In this document: one piece after another, positions 1,590 to 34,366 of the stretch | Position numbering within the stretch: position 1 is the stretch's first letter | Layout of the letters: each line of letters begins with the position of its first letter | Source: a virus | Strand: one strand, 5' to 3' | Length of the DNA: 42,191 bases | IMG/VR virus record: IMGVR_UViG_3300032288_002341 | Coordinates: 1 to 42,191 of that record | The notes under the pieces: model-generated | The model's database searches: none | Seen by the model: only the letters and a program-made list of their open reading frames with translations | Told to the model about the DNA's origin: nothing | Position numbers and translations under genes: made by a program

Positions 1590-2525
1590 ATGCCTACACC
1601 TAAACTGGATGACGCTCTACTCATAGAAGCACTGAATCTTGTTGAGGAATACGGAAGCGAATATTTAGCGGTTCAGGCGGGGGCTTCGACACTATCCCGC
1701 GCAACGCTGAGAGACAGGGCAAGGCAGGGAAGGCTTCGCGGGCTTAGACCCACATTCCGCAAGGACGAAAAGCGCATCTACACGCGGCAACGGTTGGGCA
1801 AAATGATTATGGTCATACCGGACACGCAGGTTAAAACTGGCGTGAACATTGACCACATGGAATGGGCGGGGAACTACGCAGCCGAAAAGCGCCCCGATGT
1901 GATCGTCCATATCGGTGACCATTGGGATATGCCGTCCCTGAGCCTCTACGACAAGGGGAAACTTGCGTTTGAGGGTAGGCGCTACGTCAATGATATTAAA
2001 GCTGGCAGGGACGCAATGGAGAGGTTTTTAGCCCCTATTCGCGCCGTTCCTGATTACAACCCGCGTCTAGTTTTCACTATGGGAAACCACGAAAACAGGA
2101 TTGTGCGGTTTGCTGATAACTGCCCTGAAATGGCGGGGCATGTGTCTTTAGATGACTTGGGTATTCAGGATTATGGATGGGAGGTTGTGCCGTTCCTGAA
2201 ACCTATAGAAATAGAAAACATTGAGTTTTGCCACTATTACACAAGCGGCGTTTTAGGGCGTCCTGTTTCCAGTGCTGCGGTGATGCTGAGAGAACGCCAA
2301 AAGTCTTGCGTAATGGGGCATGTGCAGACGTTTGATATGGCGGTGCATAAGAAAACGCAAAACATCGCAATGATGGTTGGCACGTTCTACCAACATGACG
2401 AAGATTACCTTGGCCCGCAGGGGAATAACCAGCGCAGGCAGATTGTGATTCTAAACGAGGTAGAAAACGGCACTTTCGACCCAATGCTGGTCAGTCTTAA
2501 ATTTTTGCAAAAGAGTTATTCATGA
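1590..2525 (+). CDS. Calcineurin-like metallophosphoesterase with N-terminal HTH-like region
   Basis: This 311-residue protein has an N-terminal helical region (about 1-60) that looks like a DNA-binding domain. The phosphoesterase core follows, with a D-T-Q motif at 78-80, GDH at 109-111, GNHE at 165-168, His 215 and GH at 243-244. The usual first motif is D-x-H, and here the His is a Gln (Q80). Similar HTH-phosphoesterase proteins occur in many tailed phages and may act on nucleic acid or nucleotides. The gene starts one base after the protease stop and overlaps the endolysin start by four bases. Confidence 0.75.
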   Translation: MPTPKLDDALLIEALNLVEEYGSEYLAVQAGASTLSRATLRDRARQGRLRGLRPTFRKDEKRIYTRQRLGKMIMVIPDTQVKTGVNIDHMEWAGNYAAEKRPDVIVHIGDHWDMPSLSLYDKGKLAFEGRRYVNDIKAGRDAMERFLAPIRAVPDYNPRLVFTMGNHENRIVRFADNCPEMAGHVSLDDLGIQDYGWEVVPFLKPIEIENIEFCHYYTSGVLGRPVSSAAVMLRERQKSCVMGHVQTFDMAVHKKTQNIAMMVGTFYQHDEDYLGPQGNNQRRQIVILNEVENGTFDPMLVSLKFLQKSYS

Positions 2526-5338: not shown

Positions 5339-6256
5339 TTATAGCTTCTTTGCGGTCTCATTGGGGTCGCTTTGGTAATAAGTATTTAGGCACATTTTTG
5401 GGTCTTTCCACCCAAACATTTTGCATAACTCCCAAACGTCCAATTTCTTGGAAAGCCTTGAGGCTGCGTGGTGCCTGAGATCATGGAACGTCAATCCTTT
5501 GATGCCGCACGCCTTGGTTAGTTTCGCAAACTCTGCGGATATGCTGCCCGCGGTTAGTCCAACGCCACCCACCAGCGCCTGAAATGCTTTCTCGGAGAGT
5601 GGAACCGAGCGCCCAGCCCCCGTTTTAGAATCATCCAAAATAGCAATCTTCCCGACGATCTTCGGATTAGAGGCAATTTCCGACGCCCGCATACCAGTCT
5701 CAAGCGCGACAATAATCGCCCGCCTAATGCCACTTCCTCCAGAACGTAACAATTTACTGATTTCATCGTCTGTCGCTATCCTATCTCTCGGCTTTGACCC
5801 CTTCGGCCTTCTAACCGATTTCAGGGGGTTAAACTTCAGCCATTTCCACTCGTTTACCGCAATGTTAAAGGCGTGGCTCAGTAGGTTACGCTCCCGCCTC
5901 ACAGACTCGCCAGAAACGCTTTTAAGCCTCCGTACCTGCCAATCCGATACATGGGGTGCGTCTAGCGCCGAAAGCCGCGTAGAAGCTATCCTGTCGCGTT
6001 TTAGAAGGTCTATCCGTATTTCCTCCCATCTGCGCCCCTTCTTGTGTATGGATACCTCTTCGGCGTAGCGGTCAAGCAGATCAGATAGGGTAAGATGCGG
6101 CGGTATGAAACCGCTATGCACCCCGATGATTTCCGACTCAATCCTAGCCGCCCAAGCCTCGGCGTCCTGTTTCCTGTCGAATGTCTTGGATTGCCTGCGG
6201 CCAGCGCGAGCGACTTCTGCCCGCCACTTCCCAAGCCGTTTTCTGAACGTAGCCAT
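5339..6256 (-). CDS. int: Tyrosine integrase
   Basis: This 305-residue recombinase inserts and excises the phage genome at attachment sites. The catalytic set can be read: Arg in GMRASEI (about 190), Lys in DSKTG (about 212), H-D-L-R at about 258-261, Trp in FGWKD (about 283) and the Tyr nucleophile in NTYYQ (293 or 294). The N-terminal part (MATFRKRLGKWRAEV) is a short arm-type binding domain. It shows that the phage is temperate. The ATG lies inside a sequence that also occurs at the end of the excisionase-like gene just upstream. Confidence 0.95.
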   Translation of the reverse strand: MATFRKRLGKWRAEVARAGRRQSKTFDRKQDAEAWAARIESEIIGVHSGFIPPHLTLSDLLDRYAEEVSIHKKGRRWEEIRIDLLKRDRIASTRLSALDAPHVSDWQVRRLKSVSGESVRRERNLLSHAFNIAVNEWKWLKFNPLKSVRRPKGSKPRDRIATDDEISKLLRSGGSGIRRAIIVALETGMRASEIASNPKIVGKIAILDDSKTGAGRSVPLSEKAFQALVGGVGLTAGSISAEFAKLTKACGIKGLTFHDLRHHAASRLSKKLDVWELCKMFGWKDPKMCLNTYYQSDPNETAKKL

Positions 6257-19783: not shown

Positions 19784-20251
19784 ATGTCGGTTAAATACTA
19801 CGTCTACATCCTGCGCGATCCGCGAGACGGTAAACCCTTCTACGTTGGTAAGGGTCGGCATCGCAGAATGGGGCAGCATGTCTTGGACGCAGAAAGCGGG
19901 AACGGCGCCAAGGCAGCAAAGATTCGGGAAATAACGGAAGCTGGCCGGGGCATCGAATACACGGTCGATTCTGAGTGGGTAATGGAACAGGCTGCATTTG
20001 ACCGCGAGCGCGAACTAATTAAAACCACGCCCGGATTAACCAATATCGTCCATAACAACACAAAGCCGCTTGTCTGGGATACGCACAGTTTATTCTTTAA
20101 TGCTCTGCTAGAGAGCGGCAAAGCAAGGAAGTATTACGCTGAGAAATACCTGCAAATCTTCAGCAAAGAGCGATGCAAAAAGCATGACCTATTGTGGCAA
20201 TGGGAATCATGCGAACACATGGCATTAAACGCCACGCCGGAAATGGCGTAA
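19784..20251 (+). CDS. GIY-YIG endonuclease
   Basis: The 155-residue protein opens with YYVYILRDPRDGKPFYVGKGRHRR, the GIY-YIG core, and has a downstream Glu-rich region typical of the LEM-3-like branch (FDRERELIKTT). The C-terminal 60 residues are likely the DNA-contacting part. It sits just before the small terminase candidate. It may be a homing endonuclease or a nuclease working with packaging. Confidence 0.85.
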   Translation: MSVKYYVYILRDPRDGKPFYVGKGRHRRMGQHVLDAESGNGAKAAKIREITEAGRGIEYTVDSEWVMEQAAFDRERELIKTTPGLTNIVHNNTKPLVWDTHSLFFNALLESGKARKYYAEKYLQIFSKERCKKHDLLWQWESCEHMALNATPEMA

Positions 20252-20258
20252 ATATCTG

Positions 20259-20678
20259 ATGGCAAGAACAAAAGGCGCATTAAACAAACGCACTCGACTC
20301 GCTTTGAGAGAGGCCGAAAGCGGTAAGCTGGATGGCGGCGAGACACTGGCGTATCTGATTCGGGTTGCGAACGACAGACACAAGGACGAACAGATCAGAA
20401 TGCAGGCGGCAAACATCGTTTTGCCTTATCTCAGGCCTAAACTTTCTGCCGTAGAACAGACAAACGTCGATGCAACGCGCTCAGAATCCGAGATTATGCA
20501 GCAAATCAAGCAGTTAGTAGAGGCCAAGCCCGAACTGTTGAACGATCTGCTCCCGGCTGGCAAGGTGCTGGTCAGTGTTGGGTCTACCGTTGTGCAACCG
20601 CAGCAAACGCTACCCGATGCGCCAAAGCCACAGAATAGTGGTGATAATGACGCACATTACGAGGCCGATAAAGCGTAA
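20259..20678 (+). CDS. Terminase small subunit candidate
   Basis: The 139-residue protein begins MARTKGALNKRTRLALREAE and has RMQAANIVLPYLRPKLSAVEQ at about residues 46-67. I recall this RxxAAxxLLPYxxPKLSAVE pattern from proteins at the small terminase position. The tail is Pro/Gln-rich. TerS recognises the packaging site and hands DNA to the large subunit. Here the two subunits are separated by about 5.4 kb. Confidence 0.65.
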   Translation: MARTKGALNKRTRLALREAESGKLDGGETLAYLIRVANDRHKDEQIRMQAANIVLPYLRPKLSAVEQTNVDATRSESEIMQQIKQLVEAKPELLNDLLPAGKVLVSVGSTVVQPQQTLPDAPKPQNSGDNDAHYEADKA

Positions 20679-21036: not shown

Positions 21037-21210
21037 ATGACGTATACGAAAAAGCATGTGGGTCACACGAAGCACTCGGTGAAGGCGGGTTCGAATGGCG
21101 GTGGTAAGGCGATGCCGGTGCAACTGGCTAAAGCTGGCACTCCGCATGGTCGGGATATGAAAGCGGCGCATCCTGACCGCAATCACAACATGAACAAGGG
21201 CAACTGCTAA
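21037..21210 (+). CDS. Small basic His/Lys/Gly-rich protein (57 residues)
   Basis: GGAGAAATGAA provides a ribosome site before the ATG at 21037. The product MTYTKKHVGHTKHSVKAGSN... ends MNKGNC. It is rich in Lys, His, Gly and Asn and should be positively charged and flexible. Its TAA overlaps the convergent lipoprotein stop region. It may bind DNA or be a small virion protein. No family was recognised. Confidence 0.6.
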   Translation: MTYTKKHVGHTKHSVKAGSNGGGKAMPVQLAKAGTPHGRDMKAAHPDRNHNMNKGNC

Positions 21211-21509
21211 TAGCCTGTCGTGCAGTGGGTGCCTAGGTAGTCGGTTGTGCAGTTGGTTATAGAGGGCGCAGGGGCGCCGTAGGTCTGTTGGTAGACCTGA
21301 GGGTTAAGAACCGCCCCTGCCCCTTGTAGGGAGCGTCCTAGCGTGTTTGGGCGCTGTATTTGAGCGATGACGCAGTTATCGAACTGGGGTGTGTTCTTGG
21401 GGATACCCATAGAACTACAGTTTTGAGCGTAACCGCTGATTATTTCCAGTTTTTGCGCGTCAGTCATGGCGCAGCCACCAAGTAACAACACCAGAGCAAT
21501 TTTACGCAT
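21207..21509 (-). CDS. Small lipoprotein on the minus strand of the late region (100 residues)
   Basis: From the ATG at 21509 the product has a signal peptide MRKIALVLLLGGC with a lipobox Cys at residue 13. The exported part has paired cysteines (NCSSMGIPKNTPQFDNC and NCTTDYLGTHC) and a predicted disulfide-rich fold. GGAGG precedes the start. It is antisense to the late operon, so it needs its own promoter and may be expressed in the lysogen. Phage lipoproteins like this can block superinfection or alter the envelope; that is inference. Confidence 0.7.
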   Translation of the reverse strand: MRKIALVLLLGGCAMTDAQKLEIISGYAQNCSSMGIPKNTPQFDNCVIAQIQRPNTLGRSLQGAGAVLNPQVYQQTYGAPAPSITNCTTDYLGTHCTTGY

Positions 21510-21531: not shown

Positions 21532-22581
21532 TTGCCAGAAATCACCATTAAGACTGGGGGTGATCTAAAACCGTTCCGCGAGATTGATTATAAGTCTTTG
21601 CGGTTGATAACGGAGCGATGTGAGGCGTCGGATTTAAAACGACGGTTCATGTTAAAGCATTTGGATAACCGCTGGAAAGAGGGGCGGTTATTCAGGGGTA
21701 GGGATACCACAGAACAGAAGTGGCGGCTGTGTGAAGGGAGAATGATGTATGGGGATTTCTCCGACTGGGATGGTTGGCAATATCGCGACCCTTGGGCGGC
21801 GGGTTTGTGGCATAACCCTGACCGGCTTGGAGTTCCGCCTTGGAACGGCCTCAGAACCGGTCATCTTTACATCATTGGAGAGCAAGGCGTTGGAGACGAG
21901 ATTTTTTTCGCCCAAGCTATACCCGCCTGTTTACAGCTTGCTGACCGGGTTACCTTCGAGGGTGACCCTAGAGTAATTCCCGCTTTAACTAGGATGGGTG
22001 TGCAGAACTGCATATCGTCCAATTATGTTTGGCAGGGGAATGTAAAGCTTCGGAAGATGCTACCCATAGAAGCGGATTGCTGGATTCCGCTGGGCGATCT
22101 GCCGAGGGTGTTTTGTCGGTTGAAGGATGTAAGACCACCGTTTGCGGTGAACTACATCACACCAGACCCGGAACAGGTTAAAAAGTATGAAGCGTACAAA
22201 GGCAGGGTCGGGATTAGCTGGAGGGGTGCCCAAGGGTTCTACCGGGCAAAAGAATTCGCCCAAGTCTGTGAAAACCCCCTATCCCTCCAATATGACCAGT
22301 CTCCCTTGGAGTCGATTGAGCGCCCACAGCTTGACCTCAAGGAAGATTTCGAAGGGTTACTCGGACTACTAGCGAACCTTTCAAAGGTTTATACGGTTTC
22401 CACCACCGTCGCACACATGGCCTCCGCAATGGGGGTTGATACAACGGTGATTATCGCCCCGTTGAATGGTCGGCATAAGAACATGCTGAACTGGAAATGG
22501 TCACTCCTTAAACGCAGCCCTTGGTATCCAAATACTAAGGTGCATCAATCATTGAGGGAATATCTTGCAGGAATTCGGTAA
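21532..22581 (+). CDS. Glycosyltransferase family 9-like protein
   Basis: The 349-residue product has a helical N-terminal third with small tetratricopeptide-like character (LKRRFMLKHLDNRWKEG). The GT-B-type part follows, with the family landmark GEQGVGDEIFFAQAIP at about residues 116-131 and VSTTVAHMASAMGVDTTVI near the C-terminus. GT9 enzymes move heptose or similar sugars. The start is TTG after GTAGGGAG, overlapping the divergent lipoprotein leader. It is the first gene of the sugar cassette between the terminase genes. Confidence 0.75.
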   Translation: MPEITIKTGGDLKPFREIDYKSLRLITERCEASDLKRRFMLKHLDNRWKEGRLFRGRDTTEQKWRLCEGRMMYGDFSDWDGWQYRDPWAAGLWHNPDRLGVPPWNGLRTGHLYIIGEQGVGDEIFFAQAIPACLQLADRVTFEGDPRVIPALTRMGVQNCISSNYVWQGNVKLRKMLPIEADCWIPLGDLPRVFCRLKDVRPPFAVNYITPDPEQVKKYEAYKGRVGISWRGAQGFYRAKEFAQVCENPLSLQYDQSPLESIERPQLDLKEDFEGLLGLLANLSKVYTVSTTVAHMASAMGVDTTVIIAPLNGRHKNMLNWKWSLLKRSPWYPNTKVHQSLREYLAGIR

Positions 22582-22765
22582 TTCTTTTGAACTTCCCTGC
22601 CGTATGTCAGAGGAAGATTTGAAAAAGATCATGTTAGCCGACATGAAGGTTACGGGTCTTGATTTCCACGACATCGAGATGACTTTTAACAACGAAGTCA
22701 AATTGATTGGTGAAGATGGAAAGCCTTTTACGATGTATCGCTCTGCGTGGCGGGCTGCGCTGTGA
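22565..22765 (+). CDS. Small hypothetical protein in the sugar cassette (66 residues)
   Basis: A TTG inside the end of the GT9-like gene starts a 66-residue frame (FELPCRMSEEDLKKIMLADMKV, EVKLIGEDGKPFTMYR). It has a mixed charged pattern and no motif. Its TGA overlaps the GTG of the next glycosyltransferase gene. No family was recognised. Confidence 0.55.
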   Translation: MQEFGNSFELPCRMSEEDLKKIMLADMKVTGLDFHDIEMTFNNEVKLIGEDGKPFTMYRSAWRAAL

Positions 22766-23511
22766 ACATCGTTACCAGCTTCCATAAAGAAGGGTATGAG
22801 GTTTACGGGCGTAAGTTTCTTGATTCGTTCAGGAAGTTCGCCCCTAAAAACGTCAACCTGACGATTTATTACGAAGACGAGCATGAGCGACCCAAAGGGT
22901 TTAACTGGGTGTCGATGCACGAAGTCGAATTGCTGGATGAGTATTTGGGGAAGCTTCAGTTTCCCCTGATGCACGGTGATGTTGGCGGTGAATATAACAT
23001 CAATTGGGATGCGCGGATGGCGCGTAAATCCTTCATTCAGATGCACGCCATGCGAGTTTTTGGAGGCAAGGTGTTCTGGTTGGATTCAGACACTGTTTTC
23101 CACGAACCAATGCCGGAGACGTTTCTGAATTCTGTTTTGCCCGATGACAAGTTCAACTGTTATTTGGGGCGAGATGGGTGGATGTATACCGAATCTGGTT
23201 TCTTGGGATTCAACGCAAACCATCCTATCGCTAAGAAGTTCGCCGCTGTGTATTTGGGTATTTTTCTGACTGGCGCGATCTTCAAATTAGAGGGTTGGCA
23301 CGACTGCTACGGGTTTGATATGGCTCGCAAGTCGATGCAGTTAGATTCCGCTTTCGTGAATCTGGCTAAAGACTGCCCGCACGGTACGAACCACGTATTT
23401 ATTAACAGCGTTCTTGGTGGCTACCTCGATCACAGAAAAGGAAATCGCAAATTGCACCGCAGCGACCCATCCGAGCTTGTTTTTGGTAGAGATGAAAAGT
23501 ATTGGCAATGA
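22762..23511 (+). CDS. GT-A glycosyltransferase
   Basis: From the GTG at 22762 (overlapping the previous TGA) the product has 249 residues. It opens MNIVTSFHKEGYEVYGRKFLDSF and has the metal-binding DxD in FWLDSDTVF (108-110), then GFLGFNANHPIAKKFAAVY and a C-terminal HGTNHVFINSVLGGYLDH. This is the plan of nucleotide-sugar-dependent transferases with a GT-A fold. Donor and acceptor cannot be told. A GTG at 22747 is a weaker start. Confidence 0.8.
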   Translation: MNIVTSFHKEGYEVYGRKFLDSFRKFAPKNVNLTIYYEDEHERPKGFNWVSMHEVELLDEYLGKLQFPLMHGDVGGEYNINWDARMARKSFIQMHAMRVFGGKVFWLDSDTVFHEPMPETFLNSVLPDDKFNCYLGRDGWMYTESGFLGFNANHPIAKKFAAVYLGIFLTGAIFKLEGWHDCYGFDMARKSMQLDSAFVNLAKDCPHGTNHVFINSVLGGYLDHRKGNRKLHRSDPSELVFGRDEKYWQ

Positions 23512-23696
23512 TTTGGTTCACGCTGTCCACGATGAAGCCCCTTAAACCCTGTGTGGTTTATCTGCTGTCCTGCGGTGACAGAGTGACGTGGGGCAGTTGG
23601 GATGCAGAGAAAAAAAGATTCCTTGGCGCTAACGGCCAAGCAGTTTACGGCGTCACTCATTGGGGTGATATGCCTGACCCGGTGAGAGATGACTGA
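23508..23696 (+). CDS. Small hypothetical protein in the sugar cassette (62 residues)
   Basis: The ATG overlaps the previous TGA (ATGA). The product has a beta-rich pattern (VVYLLSCGDRVTWGSWDAEKKRFLGANGQAVYGVTHW) like a small SH3-type or ribbon fold. It overlaps the methyltransferase start by eight bases. No family was recognised. Confidence 0.55.
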   Translation: MIWFTLSTMKPLKPCVVYLLSCGDRVTWGSWDAEKKRFLGANGQAVYGVTHWGDMPDPVRDD

Positions 23697-24285
23697 TAGA
23701 ACTCGGCAATACGGCAAATTAGACGAAATCAGGGCAGACCATTTAAACCGCTACAAATTCGCACTCCAACGTGTGAAACAGGTGGACGTTAACCCACGAT
23801 TCAGGGTTCTGGACGCTGCGTGCGGGTGTGGGTATGGGTCTTCTATCCTGAATGAACTGGGTAGAGTTGTTGGTGTTGATATCAGTCAGGATGCTATTGA
23901 CTACGCCAGAAAGAATTATCACGGGCCGGGGTATGTTTTAGGGTCGATTCTTGAAAAGCCGTGGTGCGGTGTGTTTGATGTTTTGACCTCGTTTGAAACG
24001 ATTGAACACCTGAAAGAACCTGAAAAAGCATTGAAGCTGTTTCGGGATTCTGTAGACGGTTTGTTTTTTGTGTCTGTTCCGAATGAATCTGTGAATCCGT
24101 TTAACGCAGATGATTTTGCGGGCGATGAATACCCACACCAGAGACACTACACACCTGATGAACTGGACGAGCTTTTAAGTGCGGCAGACTTCAAGGTTAT
24201 TGAGCGTTACTGCCAGAAAGACAAAAGACCCGGCGTTGTTGAACCCGGAACCGATGGGCGTTTCTTGGTTTACGTATGCACGTAG
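23689..24285 (+). CDS. Class I SAM-dependent methyltransferase
   Basis: The 198-residue protein has the SAM-binding motif RVLDAACGCGYGSSIL at about residues 38-53, VVGVDISQDAIDYAR (motif II), and FDVLTSFETIEHLKEP (motif IV-like). No DNA-recognition motif (such as DPPY) is present, so a small-molecule or sugar target is more likely. It overlaps the next gene by ten bases. In this company it probably O- or N-methylates a sugar. Confidence 0.85.
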   Translation: MTDRTRQYGKLDEIRADHLNRYKFALQRVKQVDVNPRFRVLDAACGCGYGSSILNELGRVVGVDISQDAIDYARKNYHGPGYVLGSILEKPWCGVFDVLTSFETIEHLKEPEKALKLFRDSVDGLFFVSVPNESVNPFNADDFAGDEYPHQRHYTPDELDELLSAADFKVIERYCQKDKRPGVVEPGTDGRFLVYVCT

Positions 24286-25097
24286 CCTTTTACCTGTCCG
24301 GTAATCCGGTTCACGACAACGTGATTCTGGCGATGTATGAGGGTTGCCCAGAACACAGACAACTGATTCAGGGCTTTAAATTCCAGCCGGATGCCGATGT
24401 TGCGGTGGTGTTCGGTATTCGCAAATCGCGTGTTCCTGTGAGTTGGCCGCGTGGTCGTGTGATTGACCAGCAAAAAGAGGCCGGTGGCCGCGTGCTGGTT
24501 CTGGAAACTGGCTACATTCATCGCGGGGATGGTAACGAGCATTACTACGCCGCAGGGTTTGACCATATCAACGGGCGTGCAGACTTCCGCAATGTTGGTA
24601 TGCCGTCAGACCGTTTCATTGATTTGGAAGTAGAGCCTAAACCTAGACGGTTTGGTTCAAATATTGTTCTCTGCGGACAGGTTCCGCAGGATGCCTCGGT
24701 TGACCACATAGATATAGAGGAATGGCTTGAATATGCGCGTGACGAAATCAAGCAAAGAACCCAAAGGAACATCGTATTCCGCCCGCATCCTTTGGCGAGA
24801 ACACCCGCTATTGAAGGCTGCGAGTATTCTAAAAGACCTTTGGCGAAAGATTTGGAAAACGCGCACTGTTGCGTCACGTTCAATTCAAACTCGGCGGTTG
24901 AAGCCGCTATCGCGGGTATCCCGCCGTTCGCGTTCGATATAGGTTCTATGGCTCACAAAATAGCCAATACAGATTTTGATCTGATTGAAGAACCTGTTTT
25001 TTACGACAGAACGCAGTGGTTAAACGATCTGGCTTACACACAGTGGACGCCTGCTGAAATGCGGAAAGGGCTTACGTGGTCACACCTATTCCGTTAG
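24276..25097 (+). CDS. Capsule-synthesis-type GT-B protein
   Basis: The 273-residue product has FRPHPLAR at about residues 167-174 and NSNSAVEAAIAGIPPFAFD at about 204-222. These resemble the nucleotide-sugar binding half of capsule polysaccharide enzymes (KpsC/KpsS-like) and related GT-B proteins. The N-terminal half (VAFYLSGNPVHDNVILAM...) has the usual first Rossmann-like domain. It overlaps the aminotransferase gene by 22 bases. Substrate unknown. Confidence 0.65.
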   Translation: MHVAFYLSGNPVHDNVILAMYEGCPEHRQLIQGFKFQPDADVAVVFGIRKSRVPVSWPRGRVIDQQKEAGGRVLVLETGYIHRGDGNEHYYAAGFDHINGRADFRNVGMPSDRFIDLEVEPKPRRFGSNIVLCGQVPQDASVDHIDIEEWLEYARDEIKQRTQRNIVFRPHPLARTPAIEGCEYSKRPLAKDLENAHCCVTFNSNSAVEAAIAGIPPFAFDIGSMAHKIANTDFDLIEEPVFYDRTQWLNDLAYTQWTPAEMRKGLTWSHLFR

Positions 25098-26065
25098 CAA
25101 AACCGGACTTTGGACAGAATGAAACTCGGCATTTATGGTTTGCGGTCAAGGACGGATACCTCACGCACAGGGGTGAGTATGAACGAAAGTTTGAGCGCCT
25201 ATTCACTAAAACGACCGGAAAACCGTCACTTGCTACTTCGTCGGGAACCGGGGCGCTTCACTGTGCTTTGCTTGCTCTTGGGATTGGTCGGGGTGATGAG
25301 GTTATTGTACCGACGCTGACTTTCGGTTCTACCGCTTCAGTAGTCGTTCAAGTTGGTGCTAAACCCGTATTTGTTGATGGTGTTCCTATGGATTGGGAAC
25401 TCGTTAAAAAAGCGGTTACGAAGAAAACGAAGGCAATTATTCCGGTTCATATCTACGGGGAACGGTGCCACTTTGAAGACATCGGAATTCCAATTATCGA
25501 AGATTCATGTGAAGCCCTCGGTTACGTTGAACCAACCGGAACATTTGCAGCGTATTCATTCTACGGAAATAAAGTTATCACCTGCGGAGAAGGCGGGATG
25601 TTGGTGGGGAACGATCTCGTTCGTGCCGCCCAGTTCAGAGATGGAGGATTCGACGCCGACTACGACATGAGCGTAGCGGGGTTGAATTACCGCATGACCA
25701 ACATGCAGGCCGCTATCGGTTTTGCACAGTTGGAACGGCTTAAAGAACTTTTGGAAAAGCGCAATAAGGTTGTCGCTACATACCAGAAGTGGATTGAAGG
25801 CTTTGGGAAGTGGTTGTTTGTAGCCAAGACACATAACCCTAAAGCACTGCAAGAACACCTTAAAAAGCACGGCATTGAATCACGACCCGTATTCAAGCCT
25901 TTGCACCTGACGCACGCCTTTAACCAAGTTGGTTACTTTCCTAAAGCGGTTGAGTTTTGGAAGACTGGTCTGTGTCTGCCGACTGGAACCCATGTATCTG
26001 AATCGCAAGCAGCGATGATTGCAAAACTCGTAAGGGAACATGAACGAATTAGCCAAGCTGCTTGA
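25076..26065 (+). CDS. DegT/DnrJ/EryC1-type sugar aminotransferase
   Basis: This 329-residue PLP enzyme has SSGTGALHCAL (phosphate cup, 56-66), EVIVPTLTFGSTASVV, IIEDSCEALG with Asp 143, and AYSFYGNKVITCGEGGM with the PLP Lys 166. It would make an amino sugar from a keto-sugar nucleotide. No dehydratase or epimerase gene lies nearby, so the keto-sugar must come from the host. The start is GTG inside the previous gene, and its end overlaps the large terminase by 26 bases. Confidence 0.93.
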   Translation: MVTPIPLAKPDFGQNETRHLWFAVKDGYLTHRGEYERKFERLFTKTTGKPSLATSSGTGALHCALLALGIGRGDEVIVPTLTFGSTASVVVQVGAKPVFVDGVPMDWELVKKAVTKKTKAIIPVHIYGERCHFEDIGIPIIEDSCEALGYVEPTGTFAAYSFYGNKVITCGEGGMLVGNDLVRAAQFRDGGFDADYDMSVAGLNYRMTNMQAAIGFAQLERLKELLEKRNKVVATYQKWIEGFGKWLFVAKTHNPKALQEHLKKHGIESRPVFKPLHLTHAFNQVGYFPKAVEFWKTGLCLPTGTHVSESQAAMIAKLVREHERISQAA

Positions 26066-27482
26066 TGAATTACAGACACGGCGCAAATTCAACAAGATCG
26101 AGCAGTATAAGCCTTACCCTTGGCAGTTAAAGTTTCACAACGCACGCGGGTATCTGACAGACCAGCCTGCGATTCAGAAGGGCGCAATGTGCGCCAATCA
26201 GGTAGGCAAAACCGCCTCCTGCGCTGCTGAAGCGACATTTCACGCAACCGGACTTTATCCCGAATGGTGGGAAGGGCCGCGTATCCCAATGCCCAACAGT
26301 GGGCTTGTGGCTGGACTCACTAACGAGTCAGTGCGTGATATTTGCCAGAGTGAATTGTTGGGTGACCCCAAAGACCCGACTGCATTAGGTTCTGGAACGA
26401 TACCTAAACACCTTTTAGGGAAAGTAACCCGCAAAGCGGGTGTTCCTGAAGCGGTGGACTCGGTTCTGGTTAAACACCGTCTAGGTGGGTGGTCGAAGAT
26501 TAACTTTAGAGCCTATGAGCAGGGCTGGCAGAAGTTCATGGGAACCCGCTTTCAGTGGGGTTGGGGTGACGAAGAACCCCCGGAAGAAGTCTGGTCGCAG
26601 ATGATTCGCTCGACGTTATCGACAAACGGTTATTTGTTTCTGTCGTTTACGCCTGAGTCAGGGATTACGAAGGTTGTTCATGGGTTCATGTCTGACCTCA
26701 AAAAAGGGCAGGCGTTGATTACAGCGACTTGGGCAGATGCGCCGCACATGACAAACCCTGATGGAACTTTGACAGAGCGTGCTTTGCAGAACTTGGAGTC
26801 TATCCCTGCACATCAAAGGGAAATGCGCTCGAAAGGTATTCCGTTGATGGGTTCTGGTCTGGTGTATCAGATACGCGAAGAAGACATCACCTGCGACCCG
26901 ATTGCACTGCCTACCCACTGGCCGAAGTTGGCTGCGGTTGACTTTGGTATCGGTCACGGATTCGCGGCGGTGTGGAGTGCGTGGGATAGGGATACGGACA
27001 CGGTTTACATCTACGACGCCTATAAGGTTGAAGGCGAGAAGATGCCGGTTCACGTATCGAAGCTGAACAACAACGGCAAGTGGATTCCGGTGGTATGGCC
27101 GCATGACGGTCTGAACCGTGAAAAGTCCAGCGGTGAGCAGTTGGCCGACCTCTACAGAAAAGAGGGGGCGAACATGCTGATGCACAAATTCAGCAATCCC
27201 CCGGCGCCCGGTCAGGATGAGGGAACGGGCGGGAACTCTGTAGAAGCTGGCGTTGAGTCGATCTTAAACAGGATGAATATGGGCAGGCTCAAGATATTTA
27301 AGAGCCTGAAGCCATTACTTGAGGAAATCAGGATGTATCACAGAGACAACGGCAAGATTGTTAAGCAGAACGATGACCTTATGGATGCCATGCGCTATAA
27401 CGTCATGTCTGTTCGCCATGCTCGTACGCCCACAGTTTCCGCTAAACGACAGCCCGTTGCGGCTGGTGCGTCGAACTGGTAG
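26040..27482 (+). CDS. terL: Terminase large subunit (P22/Sf6-like)
   Basis: This 480-residue packaging motor has a Walker A-like CANQVGKT (51-58), Walker B FQWGWGDEE (171-179), and the nuclease Asp in AAVDFGIG (301) with a second acidic site DDLMDAMRY near residue 447. The early pattern KFHNARGYL...NQVGKT and TGLYPEWWEG follows the P22/Sf6 branch as I know it. It drives ATP-dependent DNA filling of the capsid and cuts the concatemer. The ATG overlaps the aminotransferase end. Confidence 0.93.
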   Translation: MNELAKLLDELQTRRKFNKIEQYKPYPWQLKFHNARGYLTDQPAIQKGAMCANQVGKTASCAAEATFHATGLYPEWWEGPRIPMPNSGLVAGLTNESVRDICQSELLGDPKDPTALGSGTIPKHLLGKVTRKAGVPEAVDSVLVKHRLGGWSKINFRAYEQGWQKFMGTRFQWGWGDEEPPEEVWSQMIRSTLSTNGYLFLSFTPESGITKVVHGFMSDLKKGQALITATWADAPHMTNPDGTLTERALQNLESIPAHQREMRSKGIPLMGSGLVYQIREEDITCDPIALPTHWPKLAAVDFGIGHGFAAVWSAWDRDTDTVYIYDAYKVEGEKMPVHVSKLNNNGKWIPVVWPHDGLNREKSSGEQLADLYRKEGANMLMHKFSNPPAPGQDEGTGGNSVEAGVESILNRMNMGRLKIFKSLKPLLEEIRMYHRDNGKIVKQNDDLMDAMRYNVMSVRHARTPTVSAKRQPVAAGASNW

Positions 27483-27487
27483 GCACT

Positions 27488-29725
27488 ATGGCCGAAATCA
27501 AAAATCGTCGTATCAATAAGAACGATATCAAAAAAGTAGAAGAATTCATCACGGCTGAACTCGACTCGCGTAAAAACGCGCAGTTCCGCAAAGATGCAGA
27601 AGAAAAGTGGCGCGAGATTGACCGCCAGCTTGCCATGAAGCCGATGGACAGGGTTGATTCTACCGGCAAGAAACTTCCCAAATCTTGGCACAACGTGTTT
27701 GAACTTGGGGAATTGTCCAAGGCGTCAGAAATCATCACCGCCGACACAATGCGGATTGCCTTCCCCAGTGATCGGAAATACTTTGAGGCGCACGTAGAAG
27801 TTCCTCTTGGTCAACAGAAACCAGAGGAAGCCGAAAGCGGGCAGCGTAGGGCAGATGGTGTTCTGCGTTCACTGATGATTCAGCAACAGATGGACTTCGG
27901 GTTCCGCCCGCGTGTTGAACTGTCGGTTAAAGAAGCCCTGCACCACGGTTCATTTGTGGCTGTGGTCAAGTGGCATCAGGAAAAGATGGTTCGGCAGGGC
28001 GATAAGGTCAAGTTTCTAGGGGCGCCGGTTTGGACGCCTTACAGCATGTGGAACTCTTACCCCGACCCTAGCCCCGCCGTTATTCCGTCAGGAATCTTCT
28101 ATCAGGGTTCCATGATTGTTGTGGAATACATGCCGCTTTGGAGGCTGAAAAAGCAGACCGGCAACGGCTGGATGCCCTCCCAATACAGTCAGATTAAAAG
28201 CGACGAAAAAGAAACCAAGGATGGCAACCGAACCAAGGACGTAGAACTTGCCCATTATTACGGTGATTTGTTTATAGACCGTAAAAACGAGGAAAGCGGC
28301 ATCTACCTACCTAACTGCCACGCAATCACGGCTAATGGCATCCTAGTGTTCTACGAGGCCATAGATTTGCCGTTTAGCCCTGTCATTTACGACGGCTACG
28401 AGCGTCAGGATATCCGCGACCCGTATTACGTTTCCCCGCTGGTTAAACAGTCTCCGATTCAGAAGATTGCGACGATCTGCGCGAACAAGTATCTGGATGC
28501 CCTCGCCTTGGCGGTTGAGCCTCCCGGTGAGTATGACGCAAACGACCCTGATTACGTGGCTAACGGTGGCCCGATTATCGCCCCCGGCGCACAGACCCCG
28601 ACCCGTTCAATGGGCAAGGGCTGGAACACGCTGAAAGTTGGTGACCCTAACTTTGCGCTCGGCGGGCTTCAAATGTGTCTCAGACAGCTTCAGGAAGGCA
28701 CTGGCGTTAGTGCTGTCCGTTCTGGCATTGCCAATTCAGACCGTCAAACCGCGACAGAGGTTCAGAAGGTTGCACAAGGTGCTGAAGTCCGAACGGTTGA
28801 CTTTGTGAGCAAGTTGGAACGCTCGGTTAAGAACTTTCTGTACATGTCGCACGAATATAACCGCATGTATCTGGACGATTACCCGTTCTACAACGACGAG
28901 ATGAACACGCCTGACTTCATGCGGGCGTCTAAGGATGACATTGATTATCCGAGTCACTTCGACGTTGTAGGGTCTAAGGGTCTGTTGGGCGAGGAACAAC
29001 GCACCCAACGTATTACGCAAGCCACGATGCTGTTCTCAGGGAACCCGCTATTCGCGCCGAAACTTCGTGTTCAGGACATCATGCTTGAAGTCTATCGGGA
29101 TGCGGGCAAGAAAAACCCCGAGGAATTCGTGCAGATCGAGGAATCCGGTAAACAGGTTCCCCCTGAGATTCAGCAGAAGATGCAACAGGCTCAAGCAATT
29201 ATTCAGGAATTGAGCCAAAAGCTACAGCAGTCAGAGGCTAAAACTCAGGTTGAAATGGCGAAGCTTCAGCAGAAGGCACAAGAGGCCGCCGCTAAAGACA
29301 AGCTTGAGCGCGACAAGATGGCCGCTGAATACAAGACCGAAATGCTGCGTCTCGCAGAGGAAACCAAGCTTGCGTACGCGCAAATCCAATCAGACAACAA
29401 TCAGAAAATGATGCAAATGTCTGCTGATTTGAAAATGGCGCACAAAGAATTGGGAATGAATCTGCTGACCCATATTTCAGGTTTGCGGCATGAGGCTGGT
29501 CTTAAACAGCTTGAAATGAAATACAACACAGAGTCAGAGGATGGTGCGCCGGAAGAAGATGCCAAACCGGAAACCAAGCTTGAGGATGTTTTGGCAATGA
29601 TGGCTGGAGCCATTGACCAAGGAAACAAAACTCAGCAAGAAATTCTGAAGACCGTAAGCAAACCAAAGACCGTTAAGGTTGAAAGAACCGCTACAGGTCT
29701 TGTTGGCACAGTAAACACGCAATAA
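27488..29725 (+). CDS. Portal protein
   Basis: The 745-residue protein directly follows TerL. It has a charged N-terminal region (RKDAEEKWREID), a central body with GATAT-like SDRQTATEVQKVAQGAEVRTVDFVSKLER at about residues 415-443, and a long C-terminal Gln/Lys/Glu coiled coil (about 555-640). Size and place match P22-type portals, which extend with a long helical barrel. It forms the twelve-fold DNA entry ring. The assignment rests on order and the conserved portal-like body. Confidence 0.88.
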   Translation: MAEIKNRRINKNDIKKVEEFITAELDSRKNAQFRKDAEEKWREIDRQLAMKPMDRVDSTGKKLPKSWHNVFELGELSKASEIITADTMRIAFPSDRKYFEAHVEVPLGQQKPEEAESGQRRADGVLRSLMIQQQMDFGFRPRVELSVKEALHHGSFVAVVKWHQEKMVRQGDKVKFLGAPVWTPYSMWNSYPDPSPAVIPSGIFYQGSMIVVEYMPLWRLKKQTGNGWMPSQYSQIKSDEKETKDGNRTKDVELAHYYGDLFIDRKNEESGIYLPNCHAITANGILVFYEAIDLPFSPVIYDGYERQDIRDPYYVSPLVKQSPIQKIATICANKYLDALALAVEPPGEYDANDPDYVANGGPIIAPGAQTPTRSMGKGWNTLKVGDPNFALGGLQMCLRQLQEGTGVSAVRSGIANSDRQTATEVQKVAQGAEVRTVDFVSKLERSVKNFLYMSHEYNRMYLDDYPFYNDEMNTPDFMRASKDDIDYPSHFDVVGSKGLLGEEQRTQRITQATMLFSGNPLFAPKLRVQDIMLEVYRDAGKKNPEEFVQIEESGKQVPPEIQQKMQQAQAIIQELSQKLQQSEAKTQVEMAKLQQKAQEAAAKDKLERDKMAAEYKTEMLRLAEETKLAYAQIQSDNNQKMMQMSADLKMAHKELGMNLLTHISGLRHEAGLKQLEMKYNTESEDGAPEEDAKPETKLEDVLAMMAGAIDQGNKTQQEILKTVSKPKTVKVERTATGLVGTVNTQ

Positions 29726-33286: not shown

Positions 33287-34366
33287 ATGGCTGCTTTAAC
33301 CACTGCAACTAGTAATATCAACAGCCCAGTCAACTTTGTGTTGATGAAGGCTCTGTTGTCCGCTGCTCGTAAAAAACTGCCGTTTTTCAATGGCACGCTG
33401 TCTGCCTCGATGCAAAAAGAGGGCAATGGCGCTGCTTCTGTTAAATGGCGTCGTATTGAGAACCTTACCGCTGTAACCACGGCACTGTCGGAAGTTAACG
33501 GCACTGCGGCTGCTTTCCTTGGCCGTGACGCTGTTCGCCCGACCTACACCGACATTACGGCTACGGTTCAGAAATACGGCAACGCTGTTCTGACCACGGA
33601 AGAAATGGACTTGTATCAAGTCAATAGCAAGACTGTTGACTTCGTGGACACGCTCGGCGCTAACGCTGGCGAATCGCTGAACCGCCTGATGGAAGTGGTT
33701 TATGCTGGTGCTACGACTATCCGTTATTCGGGTAGCGCGGCTCCGACCACGACTGTTACGGTGTCTAGCGCGATCACGCTGAACGACATCAAGAACAACG
33801 TCAACCTGCTGAACGCTGGCAGCGCGATGAAGTTCACGACGCCGGGTTATGGCTCGGTGAATGTCGGCACTTCGCCGGTTCGTTCGTCCTACTATGGTAT
33901 CTGCCATGTGGACGTTGAGGAAGATATCCGTCTGCTGTCGGGCTTTATCCCGGTTGAGCAATACGGTGGCTACACTGAAACCATGCCGTTTGAATTCGGC
34001 GCGGTTGGTGGTGTCCGCTTCTGCTCGACGGAGATTATCCCGATTCTGTCGGACGTTTCCACCGTTAGCACGACTGGCCTGCGTGGCACCAGCACCGCAC
34101 TGCACAACGTCTACCCGACGTATATCTACGGCAAAGAGGCTGTGGGTTCGGTGTCGCTTGGTAACACTCACGCCACGACTGCGTACGAGATGTATGACCC
34201 GCAGAAACCCCCGGCGGTTGAACTGATTATCCACCCGAAGGGTAGTTCAGGCATTTTTGATATGTACAACGAAATGGGTTCCGTTGCTTGGAAAACCTAC
34301 TTTGCTGGACAAATCCTGAATGCAAGCTGGATTAGCAAGGTGTATTCGGCTTCGACTCGTTGGTAA
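33287..34366 (+). CDS. Major capsid protein (N4-gp56 family)
   Basis: The 359-residue protein has the family landmarks VKWRRIENLTAVTTALSE (about residues 53-70) and TVQKYGNAVLTTEEMDLYQ (about 95-113), and a C-terminal block ELIIHPKGSSG...WKTYFAGQILN. The fold is HK97-like. AAGGATAAAAGCAC precedes the ATG. A terminator follows directly, as expected for a highly made protein. It points to a short-tailed virion. Confidence 0.9.
   Translation: MAALTTATSNINSPVNFVLMKALLSAARKKLPFFNGTLSASMQKEGNGAASVKWRRIENLTAVTTALSEVNGTAAAFLGRDAVRPTYTDITATVQKYGNAVLTTEEMDLYQVNSKTVDFVDTLGANAGESLNRLMEVVYAGATTIRYSGSAAPTTTVTVSSAITLNDIKNNVNLLNAGSAMKFTTPGYGSVNVGTSPVRSSYYGICHVDVEEDIRLLSGFIPVEQYGGYTETMPFEFGAVGGVRFCSTEIIPILSDVSTVSTTGLRGTSTALHNVYPTYIYGKEAVGSVSLGNTHATTAYEMYDPQKPPAVELIIHPKGSSGIFDMYNEMGSVAWKTYFAGQILNASWISKVYSASTRW

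Follow-up and report, generated by a model that had tools for sequence, protein, structure and literature searches.

A clade-wide, content-swapping glycan gene locus in the packaging operon of a P22-like podophage

We analyzed the complete IMG/VR virus record IMGVR_UViG_3300032288_002341 (42,191 nucleotides; hereafter, the window), the genome of a freshwater bacterial virus that is a temperate P22-like podophage, and describe a cassette of sugar genes in its packaging operon. The cassette consists of seven overlapping plus-strand open reading frames (ORFs) between a probable small terminase gene (terS) and the large terminase gene (terL), including a GT9-like glycosyltransferase, a GT-A glycosyltransferase, a methyltransferase, a GT-B glycosyltransferase and a DegT-type aminotransferase (hereafter GT9, GTA, MT, GTB and DegT). 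It is a fixed, clade-wide locus whose content is swapped among relatives, and such a locus in a packaging operon is new relative to the searchable literature: we found no description in the open literature, which leaves most subscription journals uncovered, of a glycan cassette between terS and terL or between capsid and gp4 genes, of glycosylated-capsid gene sets, or of glycosyltransferases between terminases, and the nearly phage-only transferase family of KpsC fold described below is likewise absent from the sources covered. We think there is an even chance that the cassette acts late and in the cytoplasm to glycosylate a virion protein, using an amino or methyl sugar derived from GDP-mannose. 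The genes concerned are as follows.

21532 to 22581, plus strand: GT9-like glycosyltransferase, first and clade-anchored gene of the cassette (TTG start, AGGGAG Shine-Dalgarno sequence)
22565 to 22765, plus strand: small ORF, probably 53 amino acids from an internal ATG, no significant match
22747 to 23511, plus strand: GT-A glycosyltransferase with a D113-x-D115 motif (alignment, AlphaFold model, Foldseek match to GT6)
23502 to 23696, plus strand: small ORF with sub-threshold similarity to DUF551 (E 0.03)
23689 to 24285, plus strand: class I S-adenosylmethionine (SAM) methyltransferase (PF13489, 2e-12), kept in seven cassettes
24276 to 25097, plus strand: GT-B glycosyltransferase with a KpsC/WbbB fold, of an almost exclusively phage family (model, structure matches, profile scans)
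25076 to 26065, plus strand: DegT/DnrJ/EryC1 aminotransferase, perosamine-synthase-like (PF01041, 8e-72), pyridoxal phosphate (PLP) lysine K166 kept
20259 to 20678, plus strand: probable terS (weak PHROG terS match, E 0.0099), an upstream anchor kept in sister phages
26040 to 27482, plus strand: terL (PF03237/PF17289, 4e-16)
27488 to 29725, plus strand: P22-type portal protein (Pfam/PHROG-type profile matches)
33287 to 34366, plus strand: major capsid protein, inferred candidate acceptor (PHROG major head protein, 1.2e-40)
21207 to 21509, minus strand: lipoprotein-like ORF of 100 amino acids (MRKIALVLLLGGC...), outside the cassette core, labelled 'lipoprotein' in MW202713.1
5339 to 6256, minus strand: tyrosine integrase, far from the cassette, marking the phage as temperate

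The strongest regularity is the occurrence of the locus across the clade. Viral contigs were scanned with a terL profile, the best 80 loci were taken, and cassette genes were then detected with hidden Markov models; a contig was counted in the clade if its terL adjoined the clade's portal gene and at least 1.2 kb of upstream sequence was present, with duplicates removed by hand. Our scans of viral contigs rely on short conserved patterns and are capped at the best 80 matches, and the frequencies describe the sampled contigs only, a few of which in the terL sample share the same or related environmental samples. Among these best terL matches, sugar genes lie upstream of terL in 36 of 37 clade contigs and in none of 27 outgroup contigs; in the one clade contig that departs from this (L096), the upstream stretch is short and its ORFs lack an assignment. 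All 12 clade contigs in which terS is visible carry a GT9-like gene, and their terS-terL interval spans about 5 to 9 kb. An unbiased Pfam scan of the ORFs left over in these intervals gave the same picture: the 98 from the clade matched methyltransferases (FkbM and others), GT2, GT9, GDP-mannose dehydratase/epimerase, NUDIX, radical SAM/SPASM and a thiamine pyrophosphate (TPP) enzyme, and the 51 from the outgroup gave terS in 11 members plus two unrelated matches. The original prediction had suggested checking whether other phages have this gene set between their terminase genes, and this search was positive. Its picture of a normally tight order of packaging genes needs some qualification: the cassette is the norm for the window's clade, and other podophages place cargo there too, such as the lysozyme gene between terS and terL in Pseudomonas phage tf.

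Within the window, ORFs overlap by 8 to 26 nt from GT9 through terL, and the gap between terL and the portal gene is 5 nt. Upstream, terS and GT9 are separated by 853 nt, a gap that houses the minus-strand lipoprotein-like ORF. The cassette genes had been called correctly in the original prediction, coordinates and short overlaps included, although its gene list overlooked this minus-strand ORF; as for the placement between small and large terminase, terL is firm and terS is just probable. An assembly artefact as the source of the cassette is ruled out by MW202713.1 ('Podoviridae sp. ct7QV12', Manatee Spring, Florida), an independent, near-identical, complete circular genome with the same cassette, the cassette proteins being 97-100% identical to those of the window; the annotation of MW202713.1 includes repressor/cro, integrase, a single-strand annealing protein and an antiterminator. 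In GC content and codon usage the cassette resembles the virion genes, with no trace of recent import.

The content of the locus varies, and the cassette type found in the window is also seen at a second position. The order GT9-GTA-MT-GTB-DegT recurs in about 15 other podophage contigs detected with the GT-B profile, some cut off or partial and some with additional GDP-mannose 4,6-dehydratase (GMD), NUDIX-like or nucleotidyltransferase-like genes; sister phages (L002, L024, L025, L026 and others) have the order GT9-GT29-like-GTA-(GMD)-DegT-GT8-like. The second site immediately precedes gp4-like/gp10-like head-completion genes and, in contigs long enough to show it, immediately follows the major capsid gene, whose identity was verified in L015. 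Two contigs whose terL is 46-50% identical to that of the window (L132 and L109) have a GT9-led cassette at this capsid-gp4 site, and in L132, whose contig shows terS, little sequence separates terS from terL. In our trees, the window GT9 groups with GT9s of the terS-terL clade (support 100/100), while the window GTA groups with the capsid-gp4 type (100/100 in the larger set, 91/96 in the narrower one); GTB and DegT are nearest to the capsid-gp4 type by identity, the GTB tree being internally poorly supported. Because these affinities differ, the GTA-MT-GTB-DegT block probably moved in behind a resident GT9. A third architecture is found in siphophage contigs (L072, L048, L044, L053, L075, L073), where GT-B lies within a few genes 3' of a verified HK97-type major head protein, often with MptE-like, sulfotransferase or methyltransferase genes in between; where the genes behind GT-B were checked they encode head-tail adaptors, and the one directly after GT-B in L075 is verified.

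Several observations on cassette content were made along the way. Radical SAM/SPASM genes recur in the glycan cassettes (L132:10422-11360, L034:6018-6968 and L093:6347-7294; 6 of the 98 interval ORFs), and their products could modify a peptide acceptor or a sugar. One exceptionally long cassette (L110:2136-8511) has 10 ORFs between GT9 and GTB, epimerase-like and TPP-enzyme-like genes among them, which suggests a more elaborate sugar. Sister cassettes contain a 200-residue repetitive, probably beta-rich protein (X200; L002:9384-9986, homologues in L024, L026 and L079), possibly a virion or decoration protein and a candidate glycan acceptor; it has no homologue in the window and only a weak PHROG match of unknown function. 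In siphophage contigs L043-L075 (e.g., L075:5234-7279, L049:3884-10606), the region that separates the major capsid gene from the head-tail adaptor genes holds islands of variable content, with MptE-like, sulfotransferase, pyruvyltransferase-like, GT2-like, methyltransferase and GT-B genes; these islands are likely a siphophage form of what the podophage cassettes show.

The enzyme assignments draw on profiles, alignments and structure models. The AlphaFold model of GT-A (pLDDT 88) has GT6 alpha-1,3-galactosyltransferases as its top PDB matches in Foldseek (E 1e-8), and D113-x-D115 is invariant across 11 homologues. That of GT-B (pLDDT 84) best matches the KpsC and WbbB beta-Kdo transferases (E 1e-8, TMq about 0.57); a profile search of PDB sequences found no sequence homology to KpsC/WbbB, and by the model it is the fold only that GT-B has in common with these retaining Kdo transferases. 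Its family is a nearly phage-only one, as the GT-B profile hit 54 loci in viral contigs versus a single locus among genomes of 84,980 prokaryote species, the latter on a planctomycete metagenome-assembled contig on which no phage genes are obvious. Among cultured phages, distant homologues occur in Caulobacter jumbo phages and in the Pelagibacter phage Mosig; Caulobacter phages of the C1/CcrSC/CcrBL9 group have GT-B homologues, which in C1 lie between the genes for tail fibre and lysozyme. The original calls of a GT-A enzyme and a capsule-type GT-B protein thus agree with the models, and those of a DegT-type PLP aminotransferase and a SAM methyltransferase with Pfam. Its GT9-like call receives weak and indirect backing, from a Pfam Glyco_transf_9 match (E 0.21) in one of the 8 proteins of the family, TPR repeats in three of them, the family motif GEQGxGDE and the name 'tibC' given in GenBank. 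A scan of viral contigs with the single GT9 sequence gave no matches, GT9, GTA and GTB profiles run against the sequences of solved structures gave nothing useful, NCBIfam assigned no family to the window glycosyltransferases, and family profiles gave no significant match for the two tiny ORFs.

DegT points to the sugar. The window protein has the fold and the PLP lysine (K166, conserved in the alignment, in the motif GNKVITCGEGG), and its top PDB matches are the GDP-perosamine synthases 3bn1 and 3dr7 (7e-50), although it passes no NCBIfam equivalog cut-off. In the sister-phage DegT, by comparison, the motif reads HHICTMEGG, with His replacing the lysine, and the L002 protein scores best in NCBIfam to RfbH. 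His in place of the PLP Lys is a signature of ColD/RfbH-type 3-dehydratases; the sister sugar would therefore be a 3,6-dideoxyhexose, and both routes would begin at GDP-4-keto-6-deoxymannose. As originally predicted, there is no dehydratase or epimerase: GMD and any other short-chain dehydrogenase/reductase enzyme are missing from the whole window record, and the phage must therefore draw on the host's. GMD does occur inside the same type of cassette in L011 and L040, and passes the NCBIfam gmd cut-off in L011, a circumstantial link to perosamine. Bacterial perosamine and colitose O-antigen clusters (GMD plus PerA or ColD, Gmm) share this precursor chemistry, with GMD, a DegT of Lys (perosamine) or His (ColD/RfbH) type and NUDIX; the phage cassettes lack a flippase, a polymerase and a lipid-linked initiating transferase, and differ further in their nearly phage-only GT-B and in their place inside a virion operon. 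Perosamine in phages was likewise not described in the open literature covered.

In the mechanism that we propose, the tandem operon GT9-GTA-MT-GTB-DegT, running into terL, would be expressed late and act wholly in the cytoplasm. GDP-4-keto-6-deoxymannose made by the host's GMD would be aminated by DegT, giving GDP-perosamine or a closely related amino sugar; the GT9-like enzyme would put the first sugar on a phage acceptor, GTA and GTB would lengthen the glycan, and the methyltransferase would cap it. The acceptor would most likely be a virion protein, either that of the major capsid or a different one of the head, and would receive its glycan ahead of assembly or in the course of it. Selection from outside, through adsorption to debris, defence or grazers, may lead to the glycan being swapped like an antigen. 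Late timing, donor sugar, transfer order, methylation target and acceptor are all steps that we infer. The predicted late-operon placement agrees with the search for signals: no convincing plus-strand promoter or terminator parts the cassette from terL, no strong site precedes GT9, and promoter-like sites number 6 versus 11.4 expected in shuffles. Membrane-like segments are absent from the seven window ORFs; among 214 cassette proteins of relatives, none has at least two and four have a marginal single one. All enzymes thus look cytoplasmic and therefore require a cytoplasmic acceptor, either a virion protein or the inner-leaflet core of the lipopolysaccharide (LPS). Where the original prediction named virion, phage DNA or dying cell as the object decorated, the virion is favoured since the cassettes, which lie in the late operon and encode enzymes that look soluble, travel with capsid and packaging genes in three architectures. 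In gene content, these are phage-encoded soluble glycosyltransferases linked to virion genes, as in a virion glycosylation system.

Several points weigh against glycosylation of the virion. The acceptor is a candidate and the glycosylation a prediction from the genes; the late-operon neighbourhood may reflect timing alone; the GT-A and GT-B models resemble PDB folds at TM of about 0.5-0.6 only; and inspection of major capsid C-termini revealed no obvious Ser/Thr-rich tail or acceptor motif. Cell-envelope glycans are where GT9, KpsC-like GT-B and perosamine chemistry typically occur, and GT9 and KpsC-fold enzymes work on lipid-linked ones in bacteria. The authors of a pelagimyophage study take similar phage genes as O-chain modification (PMC7029224). 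These last points favour a late change of the host surface, which we take seriously while thinking it probably wrong: soluble glycosyltransferases would put an amino or methyl sugar on the inner-leaflet LPS core, and altered receptors would spare progeny from debris or exclude superinfecting phages. The swapping of sugars recalls O-antigen variation, and a minus-strand lipoprotein gene sits next to the cassette. However, none of the 214 cassette proteins is multi-pass (Wzx/Wzy/GtrC type), GtrA is missing, the cassettes are closely linked to capsid and head genes in podo- and siphophages, and new LPS synthesis is probably scant late in infection.

The position between the terminase genes would also be explained if the glycosyltransferases acted on modified bases of the phage DNA before packaging, and phage DNA glycosyltransferases are already known. 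We consider this very improbable and rejected it, as no thymidylate-synthase-type hydroxymethylase (PF00303), the synthase of hydroxymethyl bases, was found in the window record; the sister-lineage cassette, moreover, is distant from the terminase, and we know of no precedent for aminotransferase, GMD or ColD chemistry in base modification. Improbable, too, is seroconversion-like moron cargo with its own promoter, expressed from the prophage. The phage is temperate (integrase, repressor/cro) and the divergent lipoprotein gene suggests some nearby lysogenic transcription, but the promoter search described above found neither an excess nor a strong site before GT9, and the cassette is co-oriented and overlapping with terL. 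The gtrABC cassettes of P22 and SfV, which likewise include a phage-borne glycosyltransferase, have membrane GtrA and GtrC, are prophage-expressed and lie near att. The window cassette differs from such ordinary seroconversion genes, as had been predicted: no GtrA flippase (PF04138) or other Gtr-type gene was found for it, it has no multi-pass GtrC-type or other membrane protein, and at 21.5-26.1 kb it is not beside the integrase at 5339-6256.

Virion glycosylation by phage enzymes has precedents. In mycobacteriophages (Che8, Corndog, Myrna), phage glycosyltransferases glycosylate capsid and tail-tube proteins (PMC12363180, PMC12619734, PMC11256854, citing Freeman et al. 2023), the same kind of target as proposed here; similarity searches with the window glycosyltransferases gave no mycobacteriophage match, these sources mention no nucleotide-sugar aminotransferase/dehydratase cassette, and the mycobacteriophage genes are not located at the terminase genes. 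Chlorovirus PBCV-1 makes its capsid glycan with virus glycosyltransferases (A064R, A111/114R), a methyltransferase and a viral GMD, A118R (PMC9614988). It has these enzyme types and GDP-mannose-derived sugars in common with what is predicted for the window, a likeness of gene roles; PBCV-1 is a eukaryotic algal virus with an N-linked glycan. Pelagimyophage clusters (PMC7029224; e.g., phage Mosig) group homologous GTA, GTB and GT8-like genes in hypervariable or other regions, neither between terS and terL nor behind the capsid gene.

More broadly, and at somewhat less than an even chance, the cassettes may form a phage-specific 'glycan coat' module, by which podophages (and siphophages, via the GT-B core) would put a lineage-variable amino, dideoxy or methyl sugar derived from GDP-mannose on their capsids with soluble enzymes, with GT9 as the anchor at fixed head/packaging sites and the genes that specify the sugar exchanged behind it, so giving rise to viral 'serotypes'. 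If the acceptor is indeed the virion, many environmental phages bear exchangeable capsid glycans, and phage 'antigenic variation' becomes testable beyond mycobacteriophages and giant viruses. The cassettes also offer enzymologists ready-made glycan modules.

Three neighbouring or distant genes are worth recording. The lipoprotein-like ORF at 21207-21509 (minus strand) has a strong Shine-Dalgarno sequence, which overlaps the start region of the divergent GT9, and is a possible superinfection-exclusion moron within the late operon. Directly 5' of terS, an ORF at 19784-20251 (plus strand; start MSVKYYVYILRDPRDGKPFYVGKG) has the look of a GIY-YIG nuclease, as judged by eye. A metallo-phosphoesterase is encoded at 1590-2525 (plus strand; PHROG 221, 7e-56).

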